Below the pieces are notes generated by a model. That model worked only from the letters and a program-made list of their open reading frames with translations. It was not told the origin of the DNA and searched no databases. Both the position numbers and the translations under genes were made by a program. A DNA stretch of 64,000 nt from Chryseobacterium fluminis (lineage in GTDB: Bacteria; Bacteroidota; Bacteroidia; Flavobacteriales; Weeksellaceae), in assembly GCF_026314945.1 (NCBI RefSeq), contig NZ_CP111121.1, forward strand, positions 2,294,001-2,358,000, read 5' to 3'. The first letter of the stretch is position 1. Every line of letters begins with the position of its first letter. Positions 25,442-54,659 of the stretch are shown here, in pieces.

Positions 25442-25512
25442 AGACCTATAGTGTAACGGTAACACTCCGGTTTTTGGTACCGTCATTCGGGGTTCGAATC
25501 CCTGTGGGTCTA
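25442..25512 (+). tRNA. tRNA-Gln (TTG), copy 1
   Basis: A 71-nt cloverleaf: acceptor AGACCTA/TGGGTCT, D arm GTGTAACGGTAACAC, anticodon loop TTTTGGT giving TTG, T arm CGGGG-TTCGAAT-CCCTG, discriminator A. CCA is not encoded. Confidence 0.95.
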
Positions 25513-25514
25513 CA

Positions 25515-25644: not shown

Positions 25645-25715
25645 AGACCTATAGTGTAACGGTAGCACTCCGGTTTTTGGTACCGTCAGTCGGGGTTCGA
25701 ATCCCTGTGGGTCTA
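25645..25715 (+). tRNA. tRNA-Gln (TTG), copy 2
   Basis: It differs from copy 1 at two positions (A to G in the D arm, T to G in the variable loop) and has the same TTG anticodon. A near copy of the promoter lies upstream (TAAATTCG), so the whole transcription unit was duplicated. Confidence 0.95.
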
Positions 25716-25717
25716 CA

Positions 25718-25879: not shown

Positions 25880-27246
<1,367 letters not shown>

Positions 27247-27276: not shown

Positions 27277-29475
27277 TTAATCTCCTAATTCCAACTGATT
27301 TTTCACTAAATGAAAATAATCTGCCTTATTTTGAACTAATTCCTGATGATTTCCATTTTCAACAATTTCACCATTTTTTAATACAATAATTTGGTCTGCA
27401 TTTTTGACAGTAGATAATCTATGAGCAATTATTACTACAGTTTTTCCTTTGAAGAAATCCTGTAAGTTATCATGTATTATTTTTTCATTATCAGCATCTA
27501 AAGCAGAAGTGGCTTCATCAAAAAAAATATAATGTGGATTTTTGTAAACTGCCCTCGCAATCAGTATTCTTTGTTTTTGCCCCCCTGAAATACCATTACC
27601 TGATGCTCCCAGTTTGGTATTATATCCTAATGGTAGAGATTCAATAAAATTTCCTATATTGGCAATTTTAACAGATTGTTGAAGTTTATTTTTATCAATA
27701 TTTATATTTCCTGTTGCAATATTTCTTTCTATGGTATCAGAAAAAATAAAACCATCCTGCATTACAACTCCACAATTCTCTCTGATGCTTTTTGCAGAGA
27801 GCGTATTTATTTCAATAGAATTATATAAAATTTCCCCTTGTGATGCCTCATAAAACTTTAGTAACAACTTCATTAATGTTGTTTTTCCACTACCACTTGC
27901 TCCAACAATGGCTGTAATCTTTCCTTCAGGAATAAATAAATTTATATCCTTTAGTACGTAGGGAGATTTTAAACCCTCATATTGGAAACTTACATTATTA
28001 AATTCAATACCATGCTTTATTTCATTATCAGGTTTAAAGTCTAACTTCCTTTGTTCAGGCTCTTCCTCTATAGGATGGTTTTGAACTTCGTTCAGCCTTT
28101 CTAAGCTTAGCCTTGCATCTTGAAGAGAACGAAAAAAGCTGACTAATTGGTTTACAGGAGAGTTCATTTGACCTACTATGTAAGATACCCCTAATAATTC
28201 CCCTAAAGACATTTTTCCTTTTACTACAAGTATTGCTGTTAAAAATGTTACTACAATATTTTTTAATTGATTGATAAACTCAAAGCCTGATATCTGAAAT
28301 TGGTCTATACGCAATATCCTGCTATTGATTTTGAATAATCTATTTTGGATGTCCTCCCATTCTTTTCTTTTAAAATCTTCAAATTGGTTAAGCTTCATTT
28401 CTGTAACTCCTCCAATAATTTCATAAATGGATTCTGTATTTTTACTTTTTTCCTGAAACTTAAAGTAGTCTGATATTTTTCTTTTTTTCAGCCAATAAAA
28501 AGACCATAACAATGATACAACAGTTAGTAATATATAAGCAAGTAGAACATATAAATTATAGTACCATAAAACCCCAAAGAAGACAATAAATGTTATCATT
28601 GAAAAAAATGTAAGCAGACTTTGTGAAGTCAAAAAGTGCTCAATTCTTTCATTATCCTGTATTCTTTGATTAAAATCGCCTGTCATTTTGGTATCAAAAA
28701 ATTTCAGAGGTAATTGAAGTAGTTTTTTTAGAAAATCAGAAATGATGGTAATGCTTAGCTTAGTTCCAACATACAGCATCAGCCAATTTCTAATTATTTC
28801 AAAAGTAATAACTCCTAAAAACAATGCCAATTGTGCTAATAATATTATTGATATAAAATTTAAATCTTTTCCACTAACCCCTTTATCTATAAGGGCTTGG
28901 GTTAAAAAGGGAAATGTAAGAGTAATGCAACTACCTAAAAGCAAAAGCAAAAACATAAAAATTAATTGCTTTTTGTATGGAGTTAAGTATTTTAAAACAA
29001 AATTTAATCCTATATACTTATTAACAGGAGGATTTAACTTATAAAAATCTTCTGTAGGTTCAAGAAATAGTGCAACACCTTTATCATTATCTGAAATCCA
29101 ATGCTCTTTAAATTTTTCTTCATTTAGAACAACAAAACCATGTGCAGGGTCAGCCAAGTGATATTGCTTCTTCCTAGTGAAAAAATTTACAGTTATCTTT
29201 CTTAGTACAACAAAATGATTTTGATTCCAGTGTAAAATACATGGAAAAAGTTCTTTTCTTTCAAATAATTTTTCTGGGGTTGATTTAACTGAAAGTGTAT
29301 TTAATCCTATTTTTGCAGAGGCTTCTGATATCCCCAATAAGGATACTCCCTCACGAGTTATAAAAGAATTGTCTCTTAAATATTGTAAAGGATAAATTCT
29401 ATCATACTCACTTGCTATCATTGCCAAACAAGCTGGACCACAATCCATCTTGTCATGTTGAGCCACAAACTTCAT
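27277..29475 (-). CDS. C39-peptidase ABC exporter (PCAT) of the RiPP cluster
   Basis: The 732-aa product has an N-terminal C39 peptidase (Cys12 in KMDCGPACLAMI, His in HWNQNHFVVL, Asp in LADPAHG). About six membrane helices follow (residues 165-440). The ATPase has Walker A GASGSGKTTLMKLL, signature SGGQKQRILIARA, Walker B HYIFFDEATSALD and IIAHRLSTVK. Such proteins cut double-glycine leaders and export the core peptide. It is the last gene of the minus-strand RiPP operon, 13 bp after the previous gene; its natural substrates are the three GG peptides at 33.8-34.5 kb. Confidence 0.95.
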   Translation of the reverse strand: MKFVAQHDKMDCGPACLAMIASEYDRIYPLQYLRDNSFITREGVSLLGISEASAKIGLNTLSVKSTPEKLFERKELFPCILHWNQNHFVVLRKITVNFFTRKKQYHLADPAHGFVVLNEEKFKEHWISDNDKGVALFLEPTEDFYKLNPPVNKYIGLNFVLKYLTPYKKQLIFMFLLLLLGSCITLTFPFLTQALIDKGVSGKDLNFISIILLAQLALFLGVITFEIIRNWLMLYVGTKLSITIISDFLKKLLQLPLKFFDTKMTGDFNQRIQDNERIEHFLTSQSLLTFFSMITFIVFFGVLWYYNLYVLLAYILLTVVSLLWSFYWLKKRKISDYFKFQEKSKNTESIYEIIGGVTEMKLNQFEDFKRKEWEDIQNRLFKINSRILRIDQFQISGFEFINQLKNIVVTFLTAILVVKGKMSLGELLGVSYIVGQMNSPVNQLVSFFRSLQDARLSLERLNEVQNHPIEEEPEQRKLDFKPDNEIKHGIEFNNVSFQYEGLKSPYVLKDINLFIPEGKITAIVGASGSGKTTLMKLLLKFYEASQGEILYNSIEINTLSAKSIRENCGVVMQDGFIFSDTIERNIATGNINIDKNKLQQSVKIANIGNFIESLPLGYNTKLGASGNGISGGQKQRILIARAVYKNPHYIFFDEATSALDADNEKIIHDNLQDFFKGKTVVIIAHRLSTVKNADQIIVLKNGEIVENGNHQELVQNKADYFHLVKNQLELGD

Positions 29476-29488
29476 ACTATTATTTTTC

Positions 29489-30367
29489 CTAATCTATGAA
29501 AGAAATATAATTATCAATTACTTTTTTATATTGCTCATTATTAGTATAAAACAGATAATTCTTCAAAAAATATTTTTCAATATTTAAAGGAAATTGGGCA
29601 TTAAAAAATTCCAAATCATCTATATAATATTTTTTATGAACAGAATCGTATTGGAGCTTATTGATGTCTAAATTATAATGCTTAAACATAAAATTTAAAA
29701 GAAAATCATTTTTTTTGTGGTAATTAATAAGGGCAAAGAAAAGAGTTTCAAAAAAATGATTTACAGTTGATTCTATTAATAATGAAATTTGAGATTTAAA
29801 AAATTCCATTTCATTTTTCCTGAAAAAGTATGGATTATCAGTATCTTGTAATGATAAATCAGATGCAAAATTTTCAATATACTTATTAAGAGACTGCCAA
29901 TTTTCAGACTTGATATTAACTTTAATAATATTGGTTATTTGCTCTATCTTACCATATAAAGCATCTGTATAAGATTTATCAAATAAATTCTCTAATGAAA
30001 TAATTGATTTCTCTAAAAGGGTTGCTGATTCTGAAAAATTATTTTTTTTATACTCTTTATATGCTAACAATGGGGCTTCAAAGCAACTAAAGTTTTCATA
30101 CTCTTTACTTAGCTTACTTTTTACAGCATTCATTTTTTCAAGAAAATAATCCCCATAGGGTAAATCACTTGACCTATATTGCTCAAATGCTAAGTCCCCT
30201 TCATGGAACATCAGATTTAATAACAACTTATCATTAAAGTTTTCTTTAAAATCCTCACTTTCTAAAAATGTCCAAAAAATATGTGATTGATTTGAACTTT
30301 CAACATTTTCTTTCGCTAAAATTTTATTCTTTTTAAGTTCAAATATATTTTCAATTTCAGTTAGCAT
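29489..30367 (-). CDS. unknown protein of the RiPP cluster (292 aa)
   Basis: The product is soluble, Asn/Lys/Phe-rich and mostly helical, without signal peptide or recognisable motif. It overlaps the radical SAM gene by 11 bp upstream and is followed at 13 bp by the exporter, so it is firmly in the operon. It might be a helper of the maturase, a leader-recognition protein or an immunity factor; none of these can be chosen from sequence. Confidence 0.85.
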   Translation of the reverse strand: MLTEIENIFELKKNKILAKENVESSNQSHIFWTFLESEDFKENFNDKLLLNLMFHEGDLAFEQYRSSDLPYGDYFLEKMNAVKSKLSKEYENFSCFEAPLLAYKEYKKNNFSESATLLEKSIISLENLFDKSYTDALYGKIEQITNIIKVNIKSENWQSLNKYIENFASDLSLQDTDNPYFFRKNEMEFFKSQISLLIESTVNHFFETLFFALINYHKKNDFLLNFMFKHYNLDINKLQYDSVHKKYYIDDLEFFNAQFPLNIEKYFLKNYLFYTNNEQYKKVIDNYISFID

Positions 30368-31706
30368 ATTCTTTAGATTTTCTTAAATAATAGTGTAATA
30401 ACATTTTCTCTTCCATATTAAATTTGAATGTTGGACAAGCAACATCTCCATTTATCCATGATTTTGGACAAGCACCAGCACAAACTGCATAAAAGTTACA
30501 ATCAATACAATAACTGTATTTTCTATTTTCAATATTTTTATTGAAATTTCTCATTTCACTGTCCTTATTAATAGGTTCCTCAGACAATAAGTTACCTTCA
30601 ATATAATTATCGTTTTGATATGCAGGAGTATATGGTAATTCATAACATGAAAAAATATTACCAAAAGCATCAATAACTTCTGAATTTTCTACACCTACCA
30701 TGCAAGGAACAGCTTGTCTTTCAGGTAAACTTACTTGAATTTCTCCTCCCAAGTCATTTATCTTTAAAATCCAATCTATTTCTTTTGATGAAAAGTCATC
30801 CATTGTTAAGCTATCTTTTTCATTAGCTCTATTTCCTCCCCAATCAAAAACTGGAGAAAATGTAAAGTGTACTTTTTTAATTAATCCAAGTTCATCAAAA
30901 AGGTCAATTAACTGGTCAACAGATTCAACATTCTCATTATTAATATTCAATCTTATGTTGATATTTGGTTGATATCTATCAAAAGTTTCACTATTTAAAC
31001 ACTTAATTATGTTTTGCATGATTATATTATAAGAACCATCTCCTCCTTTTGTCATCCTTCTTTTGTCATGAAGTTCTTTTGTCCCATCAAGAGTGATTTG
31101 AAAATGTTTAATATTGCAGTCAACCACTAATTTTTCAAATAAATCTGGCTTTAATAAAACACCATTAGTTATAATATCAGCTTTATAGTGCACCTCATTT
31201 TCCTTGCAAAATTTAGTTATTTTTTCTGAAAAATCCAATATTGGTTTTGCCGCTAGTAGAGGTTCCCCTCCATACCAAGTAACTGAAAGTAATTTATAGT
31301 TATGTGTTTTAACTGTAGTTGCTATTCTTTCAAAAGACTTTTGTACTAAATCATCATTCATTTTTATCTTAGAATGAGATTGTCCACAATAATGACAGCC
31401 TAATTGACAGTTTCCTGTGGGCTGAATTGTAAAACTAATACCATCCTTTTTCTTTAACATATACTTATTTTCCTCTAGTATCGTTGATATTTCTTTTTCT
31501 TCATCTAAAACCAAAATTTTGTATTTTAGCAATAAATTAATTACTCTAAAATCAACTTTTTCAAAGTCAGATTTTTGAATATTATCTAGAATGTTTTCTT
31601 TTACAACAATCATATTTCCTGTTCTTGTGGAAAAAATTGCAACATCCTTCATATTGCTTTCTGAAGGAATTTCACTTTTTACTATATAATTTGAAACTTT
31701 AAACAT
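30357..31706 (-). CDS. radical SAM/SPASM peptide maturase
   Basis: The 449-aa product starts with a domain of about 90 residues that may bind the leader peptide. The radical SAM core follows, with CQLGCHYC (C100, C104, C107), TWYGGEPLLA and DIITNGVLL. The C-terminal SPASM domain has cysteines in PCMVGVENSEV, IFSCYELP and CIDCNFYAVCAGACPKSW for auxiliary [4Fe-4S] clusters. Such enzymes install thioether or C-C crosslinks in ribosomal peptides; it resembles the GG-Bacteroidales maturase class. It is the only modifying enzyme in the cluster, beside three Cys-rich GG precursors. Confidence 0.92.
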   Translation of the reverse strand: MFKVSNYIVKSEIPSESNMKDVAIFSTRTGNMIVVKENILDNIQKSDFEKVDFRVINLLLKYKILVLDEEKEISTILEENKYMLKKKDGISFTIQPTGNCQLGCHYCGQSHSKIKMNDDLVQKSFERIATTVKTHNYKLLSVTWYGGEPLLAAKPILDFSEKITKFCKENEVHYKADIITNGVLLKPDLFEKLVVDCNIKHFQITLDGTKELHDKRRMTKGGDGSYNIIMQNIIKCLNSETFDRYQPNINIRLNINNENVESVDQLIDLFDELGLIKKVHFTFSPVFDWGGNRANEKDSLTMDDFSSKEIDWILKINDLGGEIQVSLPERQAVPCMVGVENSEVIDAFGNIFSCYELPYTPAYQNDNYIEGNLLSEEPINKDSEMRNFNKNIENRKYSYCIDCNFYAVCAGACPKSWINGDVACPTFKFNMEEKMLLHYYLRKSKEYAN

Positions 31707-31708
31707 AT

Positions 31709-33799
31709 TTACTCATTTTTTAATCTTTCGTTTTCTGATGTGTCTATTTTTTTATTATTTTTTTTGATTTCTTTTCCTTTGTCAAAATTATAAGTTAATC
31801 CTAAAACAACTTGTTGCCAGCTGTAATCTTTTTTATTTAGTGAAAAATATTTCTGATTTATAGCTTCAACTTTATTGAAATAAGTACCTAAGACATCCCT
31901 TACAGTGAGAGAAAAAACCAATTTTTCATTCAGAAATTTAGCAGTATATTTAATATCAGTCTTAAAACCTTGTGAAACTTTATATAAATCATAATAAGAA
32001 GGGGTGTAATAAGAATTTTGAATAATAAATGAACCTAAACTTTTAAAATTAAATACATTACTCAAAATAGAACTTAATTCTAAGTTATTGTTATCAAACG
32101 TAACTCCTAAGATATTTCCCTTATTCTTATTATTTTGTAAATTCAATTTTACATTAATATACCACCATTTATTTAATGATTTAGCATAGGTGGAATTAAT
32201 TCCCCAACTGTATGAATCATAATTCTGAGGAATATAATTAATCAAATTTCCATCTACAAAAGTTATGTTTTCAATATTATTTTTATTGTAACTGTAGAAA
32301 GGGGTAATATATAAGATATTATTATAAACATAATTTAATTCAATATTATATCTTATTTGATTTTGAAGATTTGGATTTCCTTTTATAATTTCATTGAAAG
32401 ATGTATAATAAAAATATGGAAGTATATTATTAAATGGAACTCTATCAATTTTTTTTGAAGCAGAAAAAGAAATAGTATTCTTTTTATTGAATTGATAGCC
32501 TGCATACAAAGATGGAAAAAAATCCAGGTTATTCTGTTGTTGATTTACTTCAAGATTATATTTAACATCTCTAATAAAATATTCTAATCTATTTCCTATT
32601 TTCAAATCAATTTTATTGATTTTTTTGTTCCATTCCAAATATTGAGCATAAACAGTTTCATTGAAATCAAAAGTAAGTTCTGTGCTATTTGTACTTATGT
32701 TTTGATTAGATGTACCTAAAGAATTAACTGCCCTTAGGCCAAACTTTAAATTACTTCCATCTTCAAAAGAATATCCTCCTGAAACATTAGCGATAAAATT
32801 TTTGGAAATATTGTTGTTAATATTATAAATATTGAAGACTTCTTGATTTTCAGAAGAACTTCTAAAATCTCTCTTTGAATTATTTTTAGAATAATAGTAA
32901 TATAAATAGCTGTCTAAACTGATTTTTTTGTTTTTAAGATTATGATATAAACTTCCTGCAAAATCATTCTCAAAATCTTTTCGTGTTTTACTGGATATTA
33001 ATGAGGAATCTATATTATTTTTATTAAAAAAAGTTTGCTCTACTGTACCAGGAACATCATTATATATATTGGTATAACTAAAGTCTATCCCAATATTTTG
33101 GTTGTCATTAATTTCATAATTAGATGATATTCCAAAATAATTTACTTTGCGAGATGCTAGTGTAGTACTTAAAAGATTATAGTTGTAATTCTCTAACTCT
33201 TGAAAGGCATCATCTTTCAATATTTTGTTATCATGGTTAAAAGAATAATTTAAAATTGTCGAGAATTTATTTTTATTATATGTTAAATTATTGGAACCAA
33301 AATTTGATACCTGCTTGTTAGCCACTGTGGTATTATATAGAAAGTTCCCTGACAGACCTTGATTTTTCCATTTGTCCAAAACTATATTTATAACTGCATC
33401 ATATTTTGAATCATACATTGAAGAAGCGTTACTAATAAGTTCTATTTTTTTTGCCTTACTAACAGGAATGTTACTTATTGATAATGAACTTTCTCTACCA
33501 TTAACTAATATTAGAACATTCTTTTTTCCTAGAACACTTATGCTTCCATCTTCTATAGAAATTTTTGGCATATATTCTAGTGCATCTTTTAATGTAAGGT
33601 TATTATAGATGGGATTACTATCAATATTCAATACTGTCTTATCCCTCTCATTAGTAATTCCCTTTTTTATAGTTGTTATTACGACCTCATCAATGGCTTT
33701 CTCTTTTATAGTGTCTTTTTTTGTTTGAGAAAAGCATATAACAGAGGATATAAATAATAATAATATTGAAAGAAACTTATATAACAATTTTTTTTCCAT
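31709..33799 (-). CDS. TonB-dependent-receptor-like outer membrane barrel in the RiPP cluster
   Basis: The 696-aa product has a signal peptide (SILLLFISSVICFSQ), a plug-like domain (IDEVVITTIKKGITNERDKT through ELISNASSMYDSKYDAVINI, residues about 36-140) and a long barrel rich in Asn/Tyr strands. There is no CarboxypepD-like or SusC-type N-terminal extension. It starts inside the last codons of precursor peptide 3 (23-bp overlap) and ends 2 bp before the maturase, so it is co-translated with them. It may carry the peptide across the outer membrane, take it back with a bound metal, or give immunity. Confidence 0.85.
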   Translation of the reverse strand: MEKKLLYKFLSILLLFISSVICFSQTKKDTIKEKAIDEVVITTIKKGITNERDKTVLNIDSNPIYNNLTLKDALEYMPKISIEDGSISVLGKKNVLILVNGRESSLSISNIPVSKAKKIELISNASSMYDSKYDAVINIVLDKWKNQGLSGNFLYNTTVANKQVSNFGSNNLTYNKNKFSTILNYSFNHDNKILKDDAFQELENYNYNLLSTTLASRKVNYFGISSNYEINDNQNIGIDFSYTNIYNDVPGTVEQTFFNKNNIDSSLISSKTRKDFENDFAGSLYHNLKNKKISLDSYLYYYYSKNNSKRDFRSSSENQEVFNIYNINNNISKNFIANVSGGYSFEDGSNLKFGLRAVNSLGTSNQNISTNSTELTFDFNETVYAQYLEWNKKINKIDLKIGNRLEYFIRDVKYNLEVNQQQNNLDFFPSLYAGYQFNKKNTISFSASKKIDRVPFNNILPYFYYTSFNEIIKGNPNLQNQIRYNIELNYVYNNILYITPFYSYNKNNIENITFVDGNLINYIPQNYDSYSWGINSTYAKSLNKWWYINVKLNLQNNKNKGNILGVTFDNNNLELSSILSNVFNFKSLGSFIIQNSYYTPSYYDLYKVSQGFKTDIKYTAKFLNEKLVFSLTVRDVLGTYFNKVEAINQKYFSLNKKDYSWQQVVLGLTYNFDKGKEIKKNNKKIDTSENERLKNE

Positions 33800-33995
33800 T
33801 TAATGTGTAATTGCTACAAGATATTAATGCAGGATTTGGGTATTTTACTTTAGTCTTTGATGAGAAAGTTCCACATGATTGTAATTTTTGACAGTTGTTT
33901 CCTCCTTTAATATACATCGTAGTTGAATCTTGTAAAATTTCAAAATCTGATACAGATTTTAATAATATTAATTTATTAAATAATTTGATGTTCAT
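33777..33995 (-). CDS. RiPP precursor peptide 3 (72 aa, GG leader)
   Basis: The N-terminal leader ends in YIKGG, the cut site for C39 peptidases. The core starts NNCQKLQSCGTF, keeping the C-x5-C and CGTF pattern of the other two precursors, then diverges into a longer tail with one more cysteine (LISCSNYTL). Its stop overlaps the start of the TonB-like barrel gene. The leader is diverged (KLILLKSVSDFEILQDS). Confidence 0.85.
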   Translation of the reverse strand: MNIKLFNKLILLKSVSDFEILQDSTTMYIKGGNNCQKLQSCGTFSSKTKVKYPNPALISCSNYTLNGKKIVI

Positions 33996-34067
33996 GACAA
34001 TAAAATAATATGATAATTAACTAAATAAGGGCTAAAAAAGCCCTTATAATAATATTTCAGAAAAATA

Positions 34068-34274
34068 TTAAAGATTTAGTGTAGGAGATATTGTAGTGTC
34101 TCTATCCCCAGACTTGTATTTCTCTTTACAGTCTACAAAAGTTCCACATGATGTTAAATTAGGACAATCTCCTCCTCCTTTAATCTTAGTAAGTTCGCAA
34201 TCTTTTATAACTTCCAAAAGATTGTCAGATTTAGCTAATCCTGCTAATCTTGCATGTAGTTGCATTGATTTCAT
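34068..34274 (-). CDS. RiPP precursor peptide 2 (68 aa, GG leader)
   Basis: Leader MKSMQLHARLAGLAKSDNLL continues to VIKDCELTKIKGG. The core GDCPNLTSCGTFVDC shows two C-x5-C steps and is followed by a polar tail ending DTTISPTLNL. It is a close paralogue of precursor 1, 26 bp downstream of it. Cleavage after GG by the cluster's exporter is expected; crosslink sites are unknown. Confidence 0.92.
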   Translation of the reverse strand: MKSMQLHARLAGLAKSDNLLEVIKDCELTKIKGGGDCPNLTSCGTFVDCKEKYKSGDRDTTISPTLNL

Positions 34275-34300
34275 AAAAATATATTTTAATTAAGTTATAT

Positions 34301-34507
34301 TTATAATCCCACTGTAGGAGAAATAGTTGTATCCTTATCCCCAGATTTGTATACATTGGCGCAATCCACAAATGTAGTACATGAAGTAAGTTTAGGACAA
34401 TCTCCTCCTCCTTTAACCTTTGATAGTTCGCAATCTTTTATAACTTCTAAAAGATTTTCAGATTTAGCTAATTTTGCCAATCTGTTGTGTAATTGTTTTG
34501 ATTTCAT
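34301..34507 (-). CDS. RiPP precursor peptide 1 (68 aa, GG leader)
   Basis: First gene of the RiPP operon. Leader MKSKQLHNRLAKLAKSENLL ends in SKVKGG; the core is GDCPKLTSCTTFVDC plus a tail ending DTTISPTVGL. Its leader is nearly identical to that of precursor 2. The leader itself also holds one cysteine (IKDCELS). Confidence 0.92.
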   Translation of the reverse strand: MKSKQLHNRLAKLAKSENLLEVIKDCELSKVKGGGDCPKLTSCTTFVDCANVYKSGDKDTTISPTVGL

Positions 34508-34692: not shown

Positions 34693-35583
34693 ATGAATTG
34701 TAAAAAATTATTTAGTCTTTTCATCATGCTTAGTATTAACTATAATGTTTACTCACAGCAATCAAAATTCGAGATAATAAATTTAGCTCGATTAGAAGTC
34801 AAAATAATCGATAATGCTTTTGTAGAAACTGATTCTGTTAAAAATCGAAATCTTATTATTAACAAATTATTTATACCTCATAAAAATTTTTGGAATAGTT
34901 ATATGGGAAGTAAGAATGAATTTATTGAATGGTACGAAAATAATATGCTTCAATACAAAAACAAGAAGATAAATGCTAAAAAATTAAGTCGAGAATTAAA
35001 AAATATTAAATACACTATGTCTAAAATGACAGGATATAAACCTACAGGAACCTGGTATATTATATATGGTGCAGCTTGGACAGATTTAGGAGGTCTCGCT
35101 GATGGAACCATGTTAATAGATTTAGCTCATAAAAACAATTTTTCAATAGAACAGATCGCTAAATTTTTTCCTCATGAATTATCGCATCAAGTTTATTTTA
35201 ATCAGAATAGGTTTAATGATATTACCGCACTTAAAAGCATTATCGACGAAGGGCTAGCTGTATACGTTAACCAGGTTTACTGGGAAAATAAATATTCACT
35301 TGCTGAAAATTTAGGATATTCTGAGAATGAACTGAAAAAATGTATTGAAAATGAAAATTTAATTAACGAGTTCTTTGATATTAATAAATTTTCTACAGAT
35401 AAAGAAATAATTAATCAGTTCAGAAGCAGAAATTTTTCAATTTTACCTGAAAAATTACCTGGAGCGATAGGATACTACATTGGGTACAATATTGTTAAAA
35501 ATTATGTTAGAAAAAATGGTAAAGATTCATGGAAAAGAATATATACAGAATCACCATTATCAGTTTATAACGCAAGTCTCTAA
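34693..35583 (+). CDS. secreted zinc metallopeptidase-like protein
   Basis: The 296-aa product has a signal peptide (FSLFIMLSINYNVYSQQ), an HExxH motif in FFPHELSHQVYF and a downstream glutamate in SIIDEGLAVYVNQ, the pattern of gluzincin-type proteases such as DUF2268 proteins. It is divergent from the RiPP operon across a palindromic region, so it may process, degrade or resist the peptide product, but that is inference. The start ATG at 34693 fits the signal peptide. Confidence 0.75.
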   Translation: MNCKKLFSLFIMLSINYNVYSQQSKFEIINLARLEVKIIDNAFVETDSVKNRNLIINKLFIPHKNFWNSYMGSKNEFIEWYENNMLQYKNKKINAKKLSRELKNIKYTMSKMTGYKPTGTWYIIYGAAWTDLGGLADGTMLIDLAHKNNFSIEQIAKFFPHELSHQVYFNQNRFNDITALKSIIDEGLAVYVNQVYWENKYSLAENLGYSENELKKCIENENLINEFFDINKFSTDKEIINQFRSRNFSILPEKLPGAIGYYIGYNIVKNYVRKNGKDSWKRIYTESPLSVYNASL

Positions 35584-35639
35584 ATAACCGAAAATAATAT
35601 CAGCATCTATATCAACATTAACGAAACCGAAATTCCATT

Positions 35640-35687
35640 ACATGAACAAACCATAAAAACGGTGAATAATCCAATAATTATTTTCAT
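35640..35687 (-). pseudogene. stub of a small lipoprotein gene
   Basis: From ATG at 35687 the frame encodes MKIIIGLFTVFMVCSCN, the same signal peptide as the intact lipoprotein at 37998-38369, then loses similarity at a junction near 35639. Its ATG overlaps the stop of the preceding lipoprotein gene (ATGA). Confidence 0.7.
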
Positions 35688-36235
35688 TTTCTTTTTTTCT
35701 CAATACAATTTTCCATTTTCTGGCTAGAAATATCAATAGTATCATGATGCTGATTTACCTTTAGTTGACAGATTTCGTCAATGCCAGTATGTTGATAACC
35801 TATTCTATAAGCATTTTCAACAATTGGGAAATCAATTGTTTTATCATTTTTAAGAATGATAGAATCTGAATATACAGTATTGGCCTGTTGAACTATCTCT
35901 AATATTACTTTATCTTCTGCGCCTTTTCTATATTTTAAAAAAATTGGAATTTTAGATGCGGCTAAAGTTGTTTTTAATATTACAGCCTCTTTTTTTAAGT
36001 TTTCAAAATTGATTTTAAAATATACTATATTATCCTGCAAATGATCTTTCCAAATAGCTGAGTCCACCAGAATCTTTTTTTCATTATAGGCCAATTGCAT
36101 ATTTTCAAATTTTTGAAATTGCACATTGAAAACAAGAGGTTTCTTAACCTCTTGTTGGCTTGAATATTCATTTTGCTTTTTACAACCATTGAATAATACT
36201 ATTGCTAATACAATAACACTATTTTTTATTTTTAC
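35684..36235 (-). CDS. lipoprotein without a clear start codon
   Basis: The frame open from 36235 encodes NSVIVLAIVLFNGCKKQNEY, a lipoprotein signal with lipobox LFNGC, then a beta-rich domain of about 150 aa ending CIEKKRK. No ATG/GTG/TTG precedes the signal: the codons before it read GTA AAA ATA AAA, and the next upstream ATG runs into TAA two codons later. It may be start-less and dead, use an ATA-type start, or be made from GTG at 36124 without a signal. A decayed second copy lies at 38366-38810. A periplasmic inhibitor role is only a guess from its neighbours. Confidence 0.55.
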   Translation of the reverse strand, partial: VKIKNSVIVLAIVLFNGCKKQNEYSSQQEVKKPLVFNVQFQKFENMQLAYNEKKILVDSAIWKDHLQDNIVYFKINFENLKKEAVILKTTLAASKIPIFLKYRKGAEDKVILEIVQQANTVYSDSIILKNDKTIDFPIVENAYRIGYQHTGIDEICQLKVNQHHDTIDISSQKMENCIEKKRK

Positions 36236-36806: not shown

Positions 36807-37721
36807 TTAAGGCTTTTGGTTAAATTCATATAATTCATAATACTCAATTAATTTATTTTTATATTCATTTTCTAATTGTAGATAAATGTAAAAAATCCAT
36901 TCTTTTGTATATATATAATGGGTAAGGAATGAACGTCTAAAAGATTTTTTTTGATTCACGTAATTTTCCCAATCTGAATGATACTTTTCAAAAGCAGATA
37001 AATTTTCAGTGTCTGTGCTTTTTATTTTGTTATGAAGTTTTTGATAAATATTACCAATCTCTTTTTTCCATGACTCTTCTTCAATTCCAAAATTTTTAAT
37101 TACATCTTCATCACTGCCTGCTCCATTATCAAATTTTTTTATTCTACTTAATGAAGCTTTACAAGAATCTGATAGAGCAATAGAATCTTTAGAATTATTT
37201 TGGACTTGTGGCTTATTAAATGTTTTTGCAGATTCTTTTTTAGAATCACAACTCAATAGTAGAAAAAGCATTATAAAAACAGGTAATATTCCTGTTTTAA
37301 GGAAGCCTTGAAAAGCAGTAATATACTCATTATAATCAGAATATTTTTTGCTTGGAAATGGCGACCAATCATCGTTTACAAAAATATCAGCCTCCATAGC
37401 TCTACGCTTAATCAAGCTTCTCTCCTCATTCCCGTTTGAAAATCTTCGGGTCAAGAAAGCTTTAAAAATCTCTTCTTTTGTTAATTTTTCCACTCCTTTA
37501 TTAATTGTATTTTCTAATGTTTCACCATAACCACCATTGAAAATTGCCATTAATAATCCATCGTATTCTCTTTGCAAAAGCTTAACTTTAATACCTTTTG
37601 TCTTTGAATCTCCAAGTCCATTTTCCAGCAATTTAGTTTTTGCCATAACATCATCATATAAAAGCCTTTCTGCCTGAGCCTCCGTAATGCCATTTTTCCA
37701 TTTTATCCCAGTAAAGCTCAT
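36807..37721 (-). CDS. chimera: GH24 lysozyme C-terminus fused to a lipoprotein
   Basis: Residues 1-125 match the C-terminal part of phage-type lysozyme (GITEAQAERLLYDDV, then EYDGLLMAIFNGG, then SLIKRRAMEADIF); the N-terminal catalytic Glu region is absent and is replaced by an IS remnant in another frame. Around residue 140 a lipoprotein signal appears mid-protein (KTGILPVFIMLFLLLSCDSK), followed by about 150 helical residues with a KYHSDWENYVNQ segment that recalls LprI-type lysozyme inhibitors. I infer a deletion that joined a toxin gene to its lipoprotein neighbour. It is probably non-functional as a unit. Confidence 0.6.
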   Translation of the reverse strand: MSFTGIKWKNGITEAQAERLLYDDVMAKTKLLENGLGDSKTKGIKVKLLQREYDGLLMAIFNGGYGETLENTINKGVEKLTKEEIFKAFLTRRFSNGNEERSLIKRRAMEADIFVNDDWSPFPSKKYSDYNEYITAFQGFLKTGILPVFIMLFLLLSCDSKKESAKTFNKPQVQNNSKDSIALSDSCKASLSRIKKFDNGAGSDEDVIKNFGIEEESWKKEIGNIYQKLHNKIKSTDTENLSAFEKYHSDWENYVNQKKSFRRSFLTHYIYTKEWIFYIYLQLENEYKNKLIEYYELYEFNQKP

Positions 37722-37820
37722 CTGCCAATTTAACCAACGGATGTTCCATATTAATCAGTTCCGTAAGCCTCGTCTTAAATAAATTCTGCTGTAAATCTGG
37801 TTCTATTTTTCCTAACATTT
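37690..37820 (-). pseudogene. IS5-like transposase N-terminal remnant
   Basis: About 40 residues (GKIEPDLQQNLFKTRLTELI, then MEHPLVKLADELYWDKMEK) match the start of IS5-type transposases, with similarity to but not identity with the copy at 26.5-27.2 kb. It ends abruptly inside the lysozyme fragment. Confidence 0.7.
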
Positions 37821-37997
37821 TGCCGCTTTTTATGCCCTTAAAATACAATTTCCTGCAATTTGACACAACCTTTTTCAAGAATTTCTGAACCCAGAAATAC
37901 ATAACCAGATTGTTACATTAATTTTAAGGGCTAACTAAATAATGTCCCCAAAATAATGATAAAGAGTCGCCTCATATTAAAATGTGGCGACTTACTA

Positions 37998-38369
37998 TTA
38001 TTTATCCATCGCTTTAATTTCTGGTGAAGTTGGCGGTAAATGTTGAAATTTATAAGTATGCATCTTATCCTCGAAAACATCAAATTTACTCAATGGAACT
38101 GTATCTGTAACAGATTTAACAAAATGGAAAGTTTTAATATCAACAATATTCTTTAATTGATAAGTACTATCCTTATAAAAAACCAAATCAAAAAATCGAA
38201 ATTGATTATTTTGTGAATTTTTCTCGTTAATAATATCAATTTCTCTCTTTAAATAAATATTACCTTGCTGGTCTTCATATAGTATATTATCTTTAATATT
38301 TTTCATTTTTTTCTGTTGGCTACATGAACAAACCATAAAAACAGTGAATAATCCAATAATTATTTTCAT
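37998..38369 (-). CDS. small lipoprotein (123 aa)
   Basis: The ATG at 38369 gives MKIIIGLFTVFMVCSCSQQK, a lipoprotein signal with lipobox VCSC; an earlier in-frame start would put a basic tail before it. The mature part is about 105 aa, beta-rich and acidic. It is the intact version of the stub at 35640-35687. It sits among hydrolase fragments, so an immunity-type role is possible but unproven. Confidence 0.7.
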   Translation of the reverse strand: MKIIIGLFTVFMVCSCSQQKKMKNIKDNILYEDQQGNIYLKREIDIINEKNSQNNQFRFFDLVFYKDSTYQLKNIVDIKTFHFVKSVTDTVPLSKFDVFEDKMHTYKFQHLPPTSPEIKAMDK

Positions 38370-38810
38370 TTTCTTCTTTCTCAATACAATTTTCCATTTT
38401 CTGACTAGAAATATCAATAGTATCATGATGCTGATTTACCTTGAGTTGACAGATCTCATCAACACCAGTATGTTGATAGCCTATTCTATAAGCATTTTCA
38501 ACAATTGGGAAATCATTTGTTTTTCATTTTTAAGAATGACAGAATCAGAATATACAGTATTGGCCTGTTGACTATCTCTAGGATCACTTTATTTTCTGCT
38601 CCTTTTCTATATTTCAAAAAAATTGGGATTTTAGATGCGACTAAAGTTGTTTTTAATATTACAGCCTCTTTTTTAAGTTTCAAAATTAATTTTAAAATAT
38701 ACTATACTATCTGCAAATGATCATTCCAAATAACTGAGTCCACCAGAATCTTTTTTTCATTATAGGCCAATTGCATGCTTTCAAATTTTTGAAATTGCAC
38801 ATTGAAAGAA
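38366..38810 (-). pseudogene. decayed copy of the 35.7-36.2 kb lipoprotein
   Basis: The nucleotide sequence follows 35684-36130 almost base for base (for example ATCAATAGTATCATGATGCT in both) but has several single-base indels near 38520, 38565, 38675 and 38690 that break the frame. It sits directly upstream of the intact small lipoprotein, the same order as in the other copy. Confidence 0.85.
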
Positions 38811-38989
38811 GCCGTCTCATTTAGAATGAGACGGCTTCTATATAATTAATAGAGTAAAAAAATCACTTTATTACTTTATACTTTTTAAGAAATTCCATTT
38901 TTTCTTCAGGTAATGATTTACTCACTAAATTATCTCCATCTGTTCTAAAAAGATGATATTCTTCATTTATATTTTTAACATAAGAACTA

Positions 38990-39697
38990 TTATATCAATT
39001 CATAACTATCGTAAACGATATTACAATTTTTATTTATACTCCATATTTTCCAGAATCCTTTCCGAATATTTTTCTCAGAAATATTCCATTTACCATTTTC
39101 AAATTTTGAAACTTTGAAATGCCCTGTTACGTCTGACGGAGACCAAGTTTCCTCATATTTTTCTTTTAAAATTAAAAGATCTTTGTCCCAAAAATACTTT
39201 TCCAAATAAAATTCTGATAATCCACTATGCCATTTTGAACATATTTCTTTTTTAGCATCTAAAAATGTAGGGTTATATATGTTATCTAAATCTTTATAGT
39301 GTTTAAAATGATTGTTACTCTTATCAAATAACCAAAAAGAAAAAGAACTATTATAATTTCCTTCGTAGTTTAATAAACTAATATCATTTTGCCCATCAAA
39401 ATTAACATCATTATCTATAGAAAAAAAAATATTTTTTTCATACATCTGTATTGTGTCAATTTTTATTTCCTGAATTTTTTTTCCTCCAACATCAGTAATG
39501 ACAATTTTTTCACATTTAATAATATCAGGCTTTGAAGGGTCTTTAATATAAAATAGATCAAATTTATATGATTTGTTTGATAACTGCTTATGCAAAGTAT
39601 TGGTTGCCTGGACAGGCTTATCATTTACATTTTTATGTTGTTTTTCTTTACAATTTAAAAACAATATGAATAAAGATAAAAAAGATAATATTTTCAT
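38990..39697 (-). CDS. lipoprotein, possible lysozyme/PG-hydrolase inhibitor
   Basis: The 235-aa product starts MKILSFLSLFILFLNCKEK (lipobox FLNC). Its centre, DNDVNFDGQNDISLLNYEGN, resembles the calcium-binding repeat and core of XAC2610/PliI-like lysozyme inhibitors. Its ATG overlaps the stop of the upstream hydrolase gene by four bases (ATGA), the classic layout of a toxin gene followed by its immunity gene. The inhibitor role is inferred from these two facts. Confidence 0.7.
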   Translation of the reverse strand: MKILSFLSLFILFLNCKEKQHKNVNDKPVQATNTLHKQLSNKSYKFDLFYIKDPSKPDIIKCEKIVITDVGGKKIQEIKIDTIQMYEKNIFFSIDNDVNFDGQNDISLLNYEGNYNSSFSFWLFDKSNNHFKHYKDLDNIYNPTFLDAKKEICSKWHSGLSEFYLEKYFWDKDLLILKEKYEETWSPSDVTGHFKVSKFENGKWNISEKNIRKGFWKIWSINKNCNIVYDSYELI

Positions 39698-40440
39698 AGA
39701 TCAAAATTTAAGATGCCATTTATTCTAAATTTCTTGACATTCTGTTCATTTGGAAGTAAGACAGGGTGATCTTTAAAAAACTTAGCAATCGCTTTTTCGT
39801 GGAAAATAAAAGATGTCCCATTTCCTGCTCTCATAATATGGACATATCTAATTTTCGTTTTATTCTGGAGCTGCAACCAATAATATTGTCTTGCCATAAA
39901 CCATTTTGGATCATGGCTCGCATTATTAGGATCATCAGTATCCATATCCAAATCCGCCCAATAACCTTGACCCTCCCAGTCTCTAAAACAGGTTTTAGGA
40001 CTAGCTGAAAACACATTATTTACGATAAAATTCTTTAATTTCAAAAATTTAGGTACTCTCTTCTCTTTGAAATCTTTCGTTTCCGTATAAGATTTTATAG
40101 TAAAATTACCATATTTTACACTTCCATATTCGTCACCAACACCAAAATAAAAAGTACATAACTTATAATCTGGTTGTTTTAATCGATATGCGGTAGATGC
40201 CTTCATCCCGTCCCAACTATCAAATCCATTAAGTCTTACCCTATTATAATAAACCCATGCTATATCATACAGAGCTTCATTACCAAGTTGACTTTCACAC
40301 AAAATAGTTGAAATAAATTTTTCCTTTTCAACTTCAGATATTTTTAATTGGGGGACACTTTCTTTAACGCACTCTTCATTTACTTTTGTTTTAGATGAAT
40401 ACTTTAATCCAAATTCATTAGTTTTTGCAGATAAGGCCAT
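39694..40440 (-). CDS. putative cell-wall hydrolase / effector
   Basis: From ATG at 40440 the 248-aa product has no signal peptide. A segment EKEKFISTILCESQLGNEAL, then YDIAWVYYNRVR, resembles SleB/cell-wall-hydrolase and transglycosylase-like folds, where the Glu is catalytic. The C-terminal half is rich in Trp and Tyr. It overlaps the preceding frameshifted gene by 23 bp and the following lipoprotein by 4 bp. A secreted antibacterial effector paired with that lipoprotein is the best reading. Confidence 0.6.
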   Translation of the reverse strand: MALSAKTNEFGLKYSSKTKVNEECVKESVPQLKISEVEKEKFISTILCESQLGNEALYDIAWVYYNRVRLNGFDSWDGMKASTAYRLKQPDYKLCTFYFGVGDEYGSVKYGNFTIKSYTETKDFKEKRVPKFLKLKNFIVNNVFSASPKTCFRDWEGQGYWADLDMDTDDPNNASHDPKWFMARQYYWLQLQNKTKIRYVHIMRAGNGTSFIFHEKAIAKFFKDHPVLLPNEQNVKKFRINGILNFDL

Positions 40441-40800
40441 CACAAACAATTGTCATTTCAAACTCAAAGTCTCCCTCAAAAATACTTTTTGACAATTTAT
40501 CCAGATCAGTTTTATTAAAAGGATAAGTAACTCGCGTATTTCCACTTGTCAGAATCTGAACAGTTCCACTGTCTACAGCTTCTGATCCTACAATTTCCAC
40601 TTCAACTAAGAACAACTGTGCTTTTTCACTTCCTAAATTTGATGCATAAACGTCAAAAATCAAATTTATTTTTTCTTTTTCATCTGTATAAGAAATATAT
40701 TTTATATTTAGTGTTTTTTTTGAGGATACCCCACTCCATTTGTATTATTTAACCCCAATGCTTTTATTTTTGGAATTTCTAATTTTTTTATAGGTTTCAA
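40418..40800 (-). pseudogene. beta-rich protein interrupted by a -1 frameshift at A8
   Basis: From a TTG at 40800 the frame reads KPIKKLEIPKIKALGLNNTN through VGYPQKK and hits a stop. One base back at the run of eight A (about 40714-40721) the frame continues TLNIKYISYTDEKEKINLIF and on to MTIVCDGLICKN at 40418, about 127 residues in all. The codons at the run are A-AAA-AAA, which is also a -1 slippery site. It may be a homopolymer deletion or programmed frameshifting. No family is recognised; the fold looks immunoglobulin-like. Confidence 0.55.
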
Positions 40801-40873
40801 AATTTGTAAATTTTAATTATTAAAAAAAGAAATAGCGGCAGTTACACCGCCATTTCTCCAAGTTAATTTAAGA

Positions 40874-41513
40874 TTAATCCAAAGTACTTGTTTCCTTATC
40901 TCCATGAGATAACAGAATATCTCTCTGCTCAAAACTCGTTTCAAACTCCAGCTCTTTTGGATTTTCACAATTATTTGTATCAGTTTCCGGAAAGATTGGA
41001 CGCGGATGTTCAACCGGTAATCCCGTAGATTTATCCTGAAAAATAGTAAGTGTTGTTGGAACTCTCGTAATCCAGTATTTCCCTTGAGGCTCTCCGGTAG
41101 GCTGTCTCATTTCATCTACAATAGACATGTACATTGGATCCCCGATCACCGGCACAGCTCCACCATTCCAGATCAATCCCGTTTCAAGGAAGAACTGCAC
41201 AGCGGCTTCAAAGCCGGGTTTTACGGTAACAATAATTCTTGCCATACCTGCCTGTAAGAAACTTCTGAATAGAGGGTCTACACTTTCAGTAAGGTAAAAT
41301 TCCTGCCAGCTTTTACGGTTTGCCCAATAGTTCTGAAAAGCGTCTGTGACGCATTGTTGTTTGTAGACATTTGTGTAAATTTGTTTTAGTTTTATAAAAG
41401 GTTGAGATTTGAAGCCTCTTTTTATTAGAGTATCTTCAGGTTTTAGCCTTATTTTTTTAGGTGGTATTCAGGCTAAGATATGTCCATCATGAGTTTTAAT
41501 TTTGAGTTTCATT
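40874..41513 (-). pseudogene. unknown protein with in-frame TGA at codon 15
   Basis: ATG at 41513 gives KLKIKTHDGHILA, then TGA (41471-41469). The same frame runs on open for nearly 200 codons: IPPKKIRLKPEDTLIKRGF, later YWANRKSWQEFYLTESVDPL and ARIIVTVKPGFEAAVQFF, ending at 40874. Internal starts such as ATG at 41245 could express only the C-terminal 123 aa. The family is not recognised. It is first in the minus-strand series leading into the hydrolase and lipoproteins. Confidence 0.6.
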
Positions 41514-42766: not shown

Positions 42767-43312
42767 ATGATAAAACAAATCGCCATCGCAGCCTTAACTA
42801 TCGGAGCATTCATCTTAGGAACTAACAATGTTCAGGCTCAGAATACCACCGCCACCACTACGGTAAGCATCACTCTGAATGATGTCATCTCTATCGATGC
42901 GGGAAGTACGGCCATTACCGGTGCTGTTGCCTTCAACTATGCTACTGCTGCGGATTATAATTCGGAAAAGACAGTAGCCCAGGCCAACGCCCTGAAAGTG
43001 ACTTCAACCAAAAACTTTAATGTAAAAGTAAAAGCAGGCGGTGCGAGCTTCGTGAACGGAACCAGCCTGATCCCGGTAGATGTTTTAACCATCAAAGCTG
43101 CCGCAGCTTCAGGAACTATGGGAGGAACAAAAAGTGCTGTGGTTTTATCGGCAACGGATCAGACTTTAGTGACCAATGCTCCGCTTGGAAGCGCCTTGAC
43201 TCTGAATCTGGACTACACCATTCCTGCCACAAAATCATCTTCTTCGGATATTTTAGGGAAACCGGCCGGAACGTACACGCAAACGGTAACGTATACTGCG
43301 ACTGCTTTATAA
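42767..43312 (+). CDS. pilin-like subunit 2
   Basis: The 181-aa product has signal peptide MIKQIAIAALTIGAFILGTN to VQAQ, an N-terminal donor-strand-like segment (TTTVSITLNDVISIDAGS) and the C-terminal GTYTQTVTYTATAL. It is secreted and expected to be polymerised by the chaperone and usher at 53.8-57.5 kb. It differs from pilin 3 at only two residues (S/N in GTSLIP, T/A in LVTNAP). Low charge and high Ala/Thr fit a structural subunit. Confidence 0.78.
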   Translation: MIKQIAIAALTIGAFILGTNNVQAQNTTATTTVSITLNDVISIDAGSTAITGAVAFNYATAADYNSEKTVAQANALKVTSTKNFNVKVKAGGASFVNGTSLIPVDVLTIKAAAASGTMGGTKSAVVLSATDQTLVTNAPLGSALTLNLDYTIPATKSSSSDILGKPAGTYTQTVTYTATAL

Positions 43313-43490
43313 TAAAAATAAATAAAATTATAAGCTCTCAATATTAAAAAGTGTTGAGGCTTCTATTAACTAATAGGTGTAATTATTTGATCCGATCCTT
43401 CTCTGTAACCTGACTTTACACGTCTGAAAAAGGATTAAAAAAACAATAAAAGTAAAATTTTTTATATATTAATATTTTGTGATTTGGTGT

Positions 43491-43522
43491 TTCAAAGGCT
43501 TCCTACAGGAGGCCTTTGATTT
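43491..43522 (+). terminator. terminator after pilin 2
   Basis: TCAAAGGC-tt-CCT-ac-AGG-ag-GCCTTTGA followed by TTTT. An almost identical hairpin follows pilin 4 at 52948. Confidence 0.75.
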
Positions 43523-43641
43523 TAAAATAAATTTGCAAAAACCTGGAAAATTTTAAATCAACTAAAGCAGTTTACGAGATCAAACTCACATTGTTTAGTT
43601 GTGATACACTTGCTTTTCTATGTAAACCAATGAATAATCCG

Positions 43642-43710
43642 TGTAGTTATTTTACTACAAGAACTTCCATTTTCCACTACAGAGAAAATTTTATCGCCGC
43701 CGTAGATTTG
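43642..43710 (+). promoter_or_regulatory. pilin 3 promoter with repeated operator
   Basis: Same layout as for pilin 2: TGTAGT-N6-ACTACA (43642-43659), ACTACA at 43676, TAGATTTG at 43703-43710. Confidence 0.7.
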
Positions 43711-43762
43711 TCATGTTCAAAAGAGAACAATTAGACAAAAATAAAAATTAAATACTACTGTC

Positions 43763-44308
43763 ATGATAAAACAAATCGCCATCGCAGCCTTAACTATCGG
43801 AGCATTCATACTGGGAACTAATAATGTTCAGGCTCAGAATACTACCGCAACCACTACGGTAAGCATCACCCTGAATGATGTCATTTCTATCGATGCGGGA
43901 AGTACGGCCATTACCGGTGCTGTTGCCTTCAACTATGCTACTGCTGCGGATTATAATTCGGAAAAGACAGTAGCCCAGGCCAACGCCCTGAAAGTGACTT
44001 CAACCAAAAACTTTAATGTAAAAGTAAAAGCAGGCGGTGCGAGCTTCGTGAACGGAACCAACCTGATCCCGGTAGATGTTTTAACCATCAAAGCTGCCGC
44101 AGCTTCAGGAACTATGGGAGGAACAAAAAGTGCAGTTGTTTTATCGGCAACAGATCAGACTTTAGTGGCCAATGCTCCTCTTGGAAGCGCCTTGACTCTG
44201 AATCTGGACTACACCATTCCTGCCACAAAATCATCTTCTTCTGATATTTTAGGGAAACCGGCCGGAACGTATACGCAAACCGTGACGTATACCGCGACTG
44301 CTTTATAA
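43763..44308 (+). CDS. pilin-like subunit 3
   Basis: This 181-aa protein is almost identical to subunit 2, with Asn in GTNLIP and Ala in LVANAP. Signal peptide, N-terminal strand and C-terminal beta strand are conserved. It is followed by the CCCTCA/TGAGGG terminator, after which the array is interrupted by the AraC-to-GLPGLI insert. Confidence 0.78.
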   Translation: MIKQIAIAALTIGAFILGTNNVQAQNTTATTTVSITLNDVISIDAGSTAITGAVAFNYATAADYNSEKTVAQANALKVTSTKNFNVKVKAGGASFVNGTNLIPVDVLTIKAAAASGTMGGTKSAVVLSATDQTLVANAPLGSALTLNLDYTIPATKSSSSDILGKPAGTYTQTVTYTATAL

Positions 44309-52224: not shown

Positions 52225-52770
52225 ATGATAAAACAAATCGCCATCGCAGCCTTAACTATCGGAGCATTCATACTGGGAACTAATAATGTTCAAGCTCAGA
52301 ATACTACCGCAACCACTACGGTAAGCATCACGCTGAATGATGTCATCTCTATCGATGCGGGAAGTACTGCCATTACCGGTGCTGTTGCCTTTAACTATGT
52401 TACTGCTGCGGATTATAACTCGGAAAAGACAGTAGCCCAGGCCAACGCCCTGAAAGTAACCTCAACAAAGAACTTTAATGTAAAGGTAAAAGCAGGCGGT
52501 GCGAGCTTCGTGAACGGAACCAATCTGATCCCGGTAGATGTGTTGACCATCAAGGCTTCAGCAGCTGCAGGAACCATGGGTGGAACAAAAAGCGCAGTTG
52601 TTTTATCGGCAACGGATCAGACTTTAGTGACCAATGCTCCGCTTGGAAGCGCCTTGACCCTGAATCTGGACTACACTATTCCTGCCGCAAAATCATCTTC
52701 TTCGGATATTTTAGGGAAACCGGCCGGAACGTACACGCAAACGGTAACGTATACTGCGACTGCTTTATAA
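52225..52770 (+). CDS. pilin-like subunit 4
   Basis: This 181-aa paralogue differs from subunit 2 at a handful of residues (NYVTAAD, KASAAAGTMG, IPAAKSS). Signal peptide and both terminal strands are unchanged. The spacer after it matches the spacer after pilin 2, so pilins 4-5 are a duplicated block of pilins 2-3. Confidence 0.78.
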   Translation: MIKQIAIAALTIGAFILGTNNVQAQNTTATTTVSITLNDVISIDAGSTAITGAVAFNYVTAADYNSEKTVAQANALKVTSTKNFNVKVKAGGASFVNGTNLIPVDVLTIKASAAAGTMGGTKSAVVLSATDQTLVTNAPLGSALTLNLDYTIPAAKSSSSDILGKPAGTYTQTVTYTATAL

Positions 52771-52947
52771 TAAAAATAAATAAAATTATAAGCTCTCAAT
52801 ATTAAAAAGTGTTGAGGCTTCTATTAACTAATAGGTGTAATTATTTTGATCCGATCCTTCTCTGTAACCTGAATTTACACGTCTGAAAAAGGATTAAAAA
52901 AAAATCAAAAGTAAAGTTTTCATATTAATATTTTGTGATTTGGTGTA

Positions 52948-52980
52948 TCAAAGGCTTCCGCAGGGGGCCTTTGATTTTTT
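52948..52980 (+). terminator. terminator after pilin 4
   Basis: TCAAAGGC-ttCCgcaGGgg-GCCTTTGA followed by T6. Confidence 0.8.
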
Positions 52981-53173: not shown

Positions 53174-53225
53174 TCATGTTCAAGAGAGAACAATTAAACA
53201 AAAATAAAAATTAAATACTACTGTC

Positions 53226-54650: not shown

Positions 54651-54659
54651 ACTTAAGTC

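Follow-up and report, generated by a model that had tools for sequence, protein, structure and literature searches.

A radical SAM peptide operon with a probable TPR-like partner protein and a PF14905 barrel on a putative island of Chryseobacterium fluminis

We analyzed a 64,000-nt stretch of Chryseobacterium fluminis DNA (contig NZ_CP111121.1, positions 2,294,001 to 2,358,000; hereafter the window), in which seven minus-strand genes at 27277..34507 encode three precursor peptides, an outer-membrane barrel, a radical S-adenosylmethionine (SAM)/SPASM maturase, a probably tetratricopeptide repeat (TPR)-like protein and a C39 peptidase-exporter. With a probability of roughly 0.68, we read these genes as a horizontally acquired operon for a ribosomally synthesized and post-translationally modified peptide (RiPP) of the radical-SAM thioether type, with a modular export chassis of double-glycine (GG) leaders, C39 exporter and barrel. 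This reading is carried by the intact genes, the recurring neighborhood, the GG leaders encoded beside a C39 exporter, a CteB-like model of the maturase and a linked partner protein. The maturase looks like an undescribed branch of radical-SAM thioether RiPP enzymes with its own partner protein; this branch, its C-x3..5-C substrates and the barrel within a modular export chassis would be new.

Operon layout and precursor peptides

All seven open reading frames (ORFs) were intact, and their contiguity and coordinates agreed with an earlier note on this DNA, which had also described the genes as overlapping, an arrangement found at two of the six junctions only:

34301..34507, minus strand: precursor peptide 1 (pre1), 68 aa; ORF, six database proteins including pre1 itself, dN/dS against pre2
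34068..34274, minus strand: precursor peptide 2 (pre2), 68 aa; ORF, 79% identity to pre1
33777..33995, minus strand: precursor peptide 3 (pre3), 72 aa, with a diverged core; ORF, weak match to pre1
31709..33799, minus strand: PF14905 outer-membrane beta-barrel of the TonB-dependent-receptor type; PF14905 1e-47, alignment A3 with eight relatives
30357..31706, minus strand: radical SAM/SPASM peptide maturase; CQLGCHYC, seven conserved C-terminal Cys, probable N-terminal domain resembling a RiPP recognition element (RRE)
29489..30367, minus strand: probably TPR-like protein, 292 aa; over the cut-off of no Pfam family
27277..29475, minus strand: C39 peptidase/ABC exporter; PF03412, PF00664, PF00005 and C39/ABC landmarks

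The pre1 and pre2 genes are separated by 26 bp and pre2 and pre3 by 72 bp, pre3 overlaps the barrel gene by 23 bp, the barrel and maturase genes are 2 bp apart, the maturase gene overlaps the TPR-like gene by 11 bp, and 13 bp separate the latter from the exporter gene.

The earlier note had proposed three related GG precursors with C-x5-C cores. Leaders ending in KGG were indeed found in all three peptides (the pre1 leader ends ...IKDCELSKVKGG), and pre1 and pre2, with cores starting GDCPKLTSCTTFVDC... and GDCPNLTSCGTFVDC..., respectively, both contain an exact C-x5-C-x5-C spacing; pre3, with a diverged core starting NNCQKLQSCGTF..., is only weakly related to pre1 (40% over residues 5–50, E 2e-4), and its C-x5-C is followed by a gap of 18. 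The leaders of pre1 and pre2 carry Val/Ile at −4, Leu at −7 and Glu at −8, which we take to match the double-glycine leader consensus. In place of the KGG-GDC of the window, relatives have KGG-LDNC and KGG-ADC; cleavage is therefore most likely to occur after KGG, with the extra Gly predicted to belong to the core. The pre1 and pre2 genes differ in 13, 8 and 27 places at codon positions 1, 2 and 3, respectively, with a nonsynonymous rate (dN) of 0.18 versus a synonymous rate (dS) of 0.83, indicating that they were selected as proteins and are more than chance ORFs. Five protein-database relatives of pre1 besides itself (E 5e-31 to 1e-19) likewise speak against chance ORFs. None of the three precursors scored over the cut-off of any Pfam or NCBIfam family.

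The precursors are encoded beside an exporter with matches to PF03412 (2e-31), PF00664 and PF00005, in which the C39 Cys/His/Asp residues are in place, in agreement with the C39 exporter named in the earlier note. Its landmarks are Cys12 in QHDKMDCGPAC, H82/H87, ADP at 108, Walker A at 525 and ISGGQ at 629, and the catalytic residues presumably lie among Cys12, H82/H87 and ADP at 108.

A C-x3..5-C core and a probable partner protein in related loci

A genome search recovered the maturase (E≤1e-70) in 24 of 173 Chryseobacterium genomes, own genome included; the other 23 were at 32–41% identity, and none of the other genomes among the 173 contained a close copy of the cluster. Wider samples, in which at most four first-look candidates were scored per genome, yielded 11 of 395 genomes for the order and 4 of 395 for the class, the own genome again included. 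The protein database includes maturases 53–88% identical to that of the window, a plasmid search found a single Rhizobium plasmid (32%), and a scan of genome contigs with the maturase as query gave 17 pattern matches, none of which was confirmed. The fragments P0003 and P0150, from proteins closely related to the maturase and the TPR-like protein, are labelled Mycoplasma sp. (metagenome-assembled genome) and are probably mis-binned Bacteroidota DNA.

In 15 of 21 related loci that were fetched, a C39 exporter lies on the maturase strand, and all 15 encode a GG-leader peptide with Cys upstream of the maturase, as identified by a search requiring Cys. A repeat search without this requirement returned 25 leader-like peptides in the 15 loci, each with 2–5 Cys after the GG, along with three further ORFs in L051 that resemble chance. 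The leaders of the relatives align with those of the window, and every one of 22 peptides compared has at least one C-x3..5-C step, the other gaps being 1 and 6–18. The C-x5-C of the window thus belongs to a C-x3..5-C core pattern common to the family. Similar C-x5-C loops, CPNLTKC in L041 and CPNLRTC in L049 versus CPNLTSC in the window, occur in two loci that have no TPR-like gene and whose maturases share 42% and 41% identity, respectively, with that of the window. The remaining six loci (L024, L047, L048, L054, L055 and L056) are arranged differently, and the searches recognised no leader peptide of this kind in them. L054 and L056 contain more distant maturases (33% and 32%) within another arrangement of several genes: a small second ORF bears a weak resemblance to the maturase, a 665–676-aa protein is also encoded (with a weak cyclase/TED-like match in L056), and no window-like exporter lies within the fetched stretch.

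Similar genes for barrel, precursor, maturase and exporter are found grouped in further Chryseobacterium genomes and in two genomes of another genus, with the barrel in 11 of the 15 loci. The Pfam PF14905 matches agree with the profile-based barrel calls for eight genomes. The view of the earlier note that the barrel and C-x5-C set the cluster apart was not supported: C-x3..5-C cores recur in the same genomes, barrel and exporter also accompany a very different maturase (LanB/LanC) in L079, a lanthipeptide cluster elsewhere in this genome, and Bacteroidetes ATP-grasp RiPP loci with PF14905 and TPR genes have been described (PMC8939145). Two features limit how these counts are read: the clusters L022, L023 and L043 are almost the same, which means that the loci are not independent events, and profiles A1 (partner protein) and A3 (barrel) include sequences from loci later counted with them.

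The 292-aa protein, previously called unknown, probably has a TPR-like fold and serves the maturase as a dedicated partner. Its profile A1 (14 rows, including partner proteins from 13 of the 19 genomes with strong hits) was searched with at most 13 first-look candidates scored per genome; 18 of 19 strong hits adjoin a maturase, 13 of these proteins being in the query profile, and of the 6 strong hits outside the profile, 5 do so. In L044, L045 and L057, an extra small protein is encoded between the TPR-like gene and the exporter; it matches DUF2807 (Pfam) in L044 and L045, with which the L057 protein groups by sequence.

The maturase and its likely chemistry

The radical SAM/SPASM assignment held: the maturase scored over the PF04055 cut-off (1e-13, Pfam), and its CxxxCxxC motif and SPASM cysteines are invariant in the alignment. 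The Pfam SPASM model reached 11.3 of the 21.5 bits required; TIGR04085, which was over its cut-off in three relatives, was not among the best 25 NCBIfam matches of the window maturase. The structure model matched best the PDB entries 5why and 5wgg (CteB), a thioether maturase, at 18% identity. The N-terminal domain is probably a leader-binding, RRE-like domain, consistent with its secondary structure and with full-length matches. Cys thioethers appear the likeliest chemistry of the cluster.

Several observations weigh against this assignment and against the operon reading as a whole. Of 55 NCBIfam matches of the maturase, the top 25 all fell below their own cut-offs, with PapB at 112 of 340 bits and the SCIFF maturase at 60 of 425, so that neither of these ranthipeptide maturase models (CteB/PapB type) was passed. 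The maturase model scored nearly as high with anSME (25.4) and TigE (23.9), which are not known to form thioethers, as with its best PDB matches; the fold likeness at 18% identity therefore does not fix the chemistry. The structural fit of the leader-binding domain concerns the full-length protein rather than the N-terminal domain alone. A Gln in pre3 stands at the place of the Thr in pre1 and pre2, indicating that the acceptor residue is not invariant. Finally, 2 of the 15 related loci lack the TPR-like gene and 4 lack the barrel, which shows that the family as a whole can do without either.

In the same operon, the maturase might instead catalyze some other radical reaction, for instance epimerisation or the formation of a cyclophane or cyclopropane, with the Cys ending as disulfides after export. 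We regard this as a minority possibility, yet the best placed of the alternatives. It would agree with anSME and TigE following the first two PDB entries within 1.5–3 Z, with the sub-cut-off NCBIfam matches spanning cyclophane and other families, and with Cys pairs 3–5 residues apart, which would suit disulfides too; however, all 25 leader-like peptides from the 15 relatives carry at least two Cys after the GG in the search not requiring Cys, and several of these cores contain no aromatic residues.

Under the thioether reading, the N-terminal domain of the maturase would bind the precursor leader, and radical chemistry would, somewhat more probably than not, link the sulfurs of Cys in the C-x3..5-C core (C-x5-C-x5-C in the window) to a carbon in a neighboring residue such as Thr, Ser or Asp. 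The TPR-like protein may help by holding the precursor or the maturase in place. Cleavage by the C39 domain would take place after KGG during export to the periplasm, where the barrel could handle the peptide at the outer membrane, either as its exit or as a cognate receptor/importer, two roles that are equally plausible and each somewhat short of even odds. Activity of the product against neighboring bacteria is our default guess.

The barrel and the HlyD question

The TonB-receptor-like barrel recognised in the earlier note was borne out by PF14905 (1e-47, Pfam). A signal peptide and a plug-like N-terminal region are visible by eye only, in alignment A3 with eight relatives; the Plug model was unmatched in the window barrel and reached 21.3 of 23.9 bits in relative L041, and phmmer found no match of the barrel among PDB sequences. 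No immunity protein, regulator, HlyD or TolC was recognised among the seven genes, and calling the system complete, as the earlier note did, was too strong.

We counted HlyD and barrel genes near 36 full-length C39 exporters of 12 genomes chosen for carrying the maturase. Nearby meant the same strand, within 6 kb of the exporter for HlyD and 10 kb for the barrel. Among the matches listed, HlyD was nearby in 13 cases, the barrel in 12, both in 0 and neither in 11 (Fisher p 0.002); without the 12 maturase clusters (n=24), the pattern was weaker (HlyD 13, barrel 3, both 0, neither 8; p 0.08). The 36 exporters were taken from 38 C39 matches after fragments of 82 and 127 aa were dropped, and the count used 19 matches for HlyD and 17 for the barrel, chosen after inspecting the lists and comprising the ones close to exporters together with some others. 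The matches listed end at about E 2e-9 for HlyD (234 in all) and about 1.5e-11 for the barrel (248 in all), so weak matches may be missed. Three of the 12 maturase clusters had neither gene among these matches, which argues against the barrel as a required exit. The split fits a barrel replacing the HlyD/TolC route or, equally, a receptor accompanying HlyD-less exporters. For graspetide loci, an export role of TonB-receptor-related proteins had already been predicted (PMC8939145).

On a bolder and doubtful proposal, the PF14905 barrel, not HlyD/TolC, would be the outer-membrane gate of a portable Bacteroidota RiPP export chassis that takes different maturases, here a radical SAM enzyme with a TPR-like partner making a new C-x3..5-C crosslink. 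If our main reading is right, the cluster would represent an undescribed branch of Bacteroidota radical-SAM peptide chemistry with a dedicated partner and short, simple, easily tested substrates, and the lack of exporters with both HlyD and a barrel nearby would point to a testable answer to how GG-type RiPPs pass the Gram-negative Bacteroidota outer membrane.

The barrel also raises the unlikely alternative of a peptide that captures metals or nutrients by methanobactin-like logic, being exported and then re-imported through the barrel as a TonB-dependent importer. Methanobactin clusters carry TonB-type receptors, and Cys-rich peptides are combined here in one operon with a barrel of this type that has a plug-like region ahead of it by eye; but Pfam identified no inner-membrane importer or metal regulator among the seven genes, core spacing varies widely among relatives, unlike one metal site, and a barrel of the same family is encoded in a lanthipeptide cluster.

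Comparison with known peptide systems

The CteB/SCIFF ranthipeptide system shares with the window cluster the best PDB match, radical SAM and SPASM domains, a probable leader-binding N-terminal domain and a precursor with a Cys core; apart from the low identity and SCIFF score given above, the window differs by its GG leader, C39 exporter, barrel and C-x5-C-x5-C core. The best NCBIfam match of the window maturase and of three relatives scanned was TIGR04463 'rSAM_vs_C_rich', which covered residues 36–438 of the window protein; at 196.4 bits in the window and 213–231 bits in the relatives versus a cut-off of 525, none of them qualified as a member.

The view that the cluster does not clearly equal the GG-Bacteroidales type (TIGR04148/TIGR04149) was upheld. 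Both have GG leaders, a radical SAM enzyme and a Bacteroidota host; the window differs in that no pseudo-rSAM is present among the seven genes, and its three precursors showed no TIGR04149 match at E≤5; membership was rejected. TIGR04148 did not appear in the top 25 of the 55 NCBIfam matches found for the maturase and reached 52.8 of 300 bits in relative L041. TIGR04149 was matched by a lanthipeptide precursor of the same genome (30 bits, cut-off 25).

For Bacteroidetes ATP-grasp/SPASM RiPP loci, PMC8939145 names a C39 ABC exporter, a SPASM enzyme, a PF14905 barrel and a TPR protein among the associated families; HlyD is given as common there and absent in the window cluster. Graspetide or grasp-with-spasm membership was rejected, as no ATP-grasp was found in the seven genes, three neighbors and nine further flanking proteins. 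A full-text literature search retrieved no title or abstract start describing the layout without ATP-grasp, with subscription journals thinly covered, which is no proof of absence.

Two clusters of the same genome have related exporters. L079 (G000:C2:3955500-3974000), a class I lanthipeptide cluster, resembles the window cluster in its GG precursors, PF14905 barrel, C39 exporter (66% identical to that of the window) and lack of HlyD among the matches listed nearby; maturation there is by LanB and two LanC-like proteins, versus radical SAM in the window. L079 also encodes six near-identical GG precursors (...QSCGQCSCGGNTVV...) and a luciferase-like oxidoreductase. The exporter of L080 (G000:C2:2514000-2530000), a grasp-with-spasm locus, is 55% identical to that of the window. 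A 197-aa ORF of L080 passes TIGR04192, matching model positions 125–318 only, and is preceded by a 337-aa ORF without a family match, which suggests a possible break or rearrangement in the ATP-grasp gene.

Genomic setting

The surroundings of the cluster contain the following features:

25442-25513 and 25645-25716, plus strand: tandem pair of tRNA-Gln genes that probably marks the island border, with the G+C drop following about 1.3 kb later
25916-26446, plus strand: integrase-core transposase fragment
26899-27153, minus strand: IS5-type transposase fragment
34025..34047, no strand assigned: perfect 9-bp-stem palindrome in the pre2-pre3 gap, terminator-like on the plus strand only

The G+C content per kb falls from 36–45% to 23–31% from about 27000 on, and the cluster has 27.0% compared to 38.4% in window positions 1-25000. 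With its tRNA genes, transposase fragments and G+C drop, the cluster looks like part of an acquired island. Transposase fragments, the tRNA border, the missing third regularly spaced Cys of pre3 and the lack of a close copy among the 173 same-genus genomes would also suit a decaying, silent island passenger, which is nonetheless very unlikely given seven intact frames and purifying selection on pre1 and pre2.

The palindrome at 34025..34047 is a possible attenuator, and the number of terminator-like sites was not significant (3 found versus 2.4 expected by shuffling). A promoter scan limited to the sigma-70 type was not above background (59 found versus 53.2 expected in shuffles), and Rfam returned only the two tRNAs.

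A GldB/DUF2268-like protease gene (34693-35583, plus strand) was rejected as a member of the system, since no ORF of the 21 fetched loci had it as top-scoring query at E≤1e-3. It lies at the place where relatives encode a TPR/AraC-type regulator; L022, L045, L049, L050, L053 and L058 have such a divergent 559–584-aa protein, with TPR and an AraC-type helix-turn-helix (HTH), near the operon, and HTH_18 was over its cut-off in two of the six clusters and just under in four. The barrel genes of L051 and L052 are directly preceded, on the same strand, by a gene for a FeeM-like N-acyl amino acid synthase, which scored over the PF21926 cut-off.

Of the five genes right of the cluster (36807-41245), a single one, phage-lysozyme-like, scored over a Pfam cut-off. 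A 493-bp duplication (93.5%; window 35639-36131 and 38321-38807) spans small ORFs in this region. Farther right, four 181-aa secreted-type proteins, 97–99% identical, are encoded at 42767-44308 and 52225-53771 and stem from a roughly 1.8-kb duplication with 94% DNA identity; the copies lie near large surface-type proteins at 53850-58911, and a fifth, more distant copy is located at 42020.

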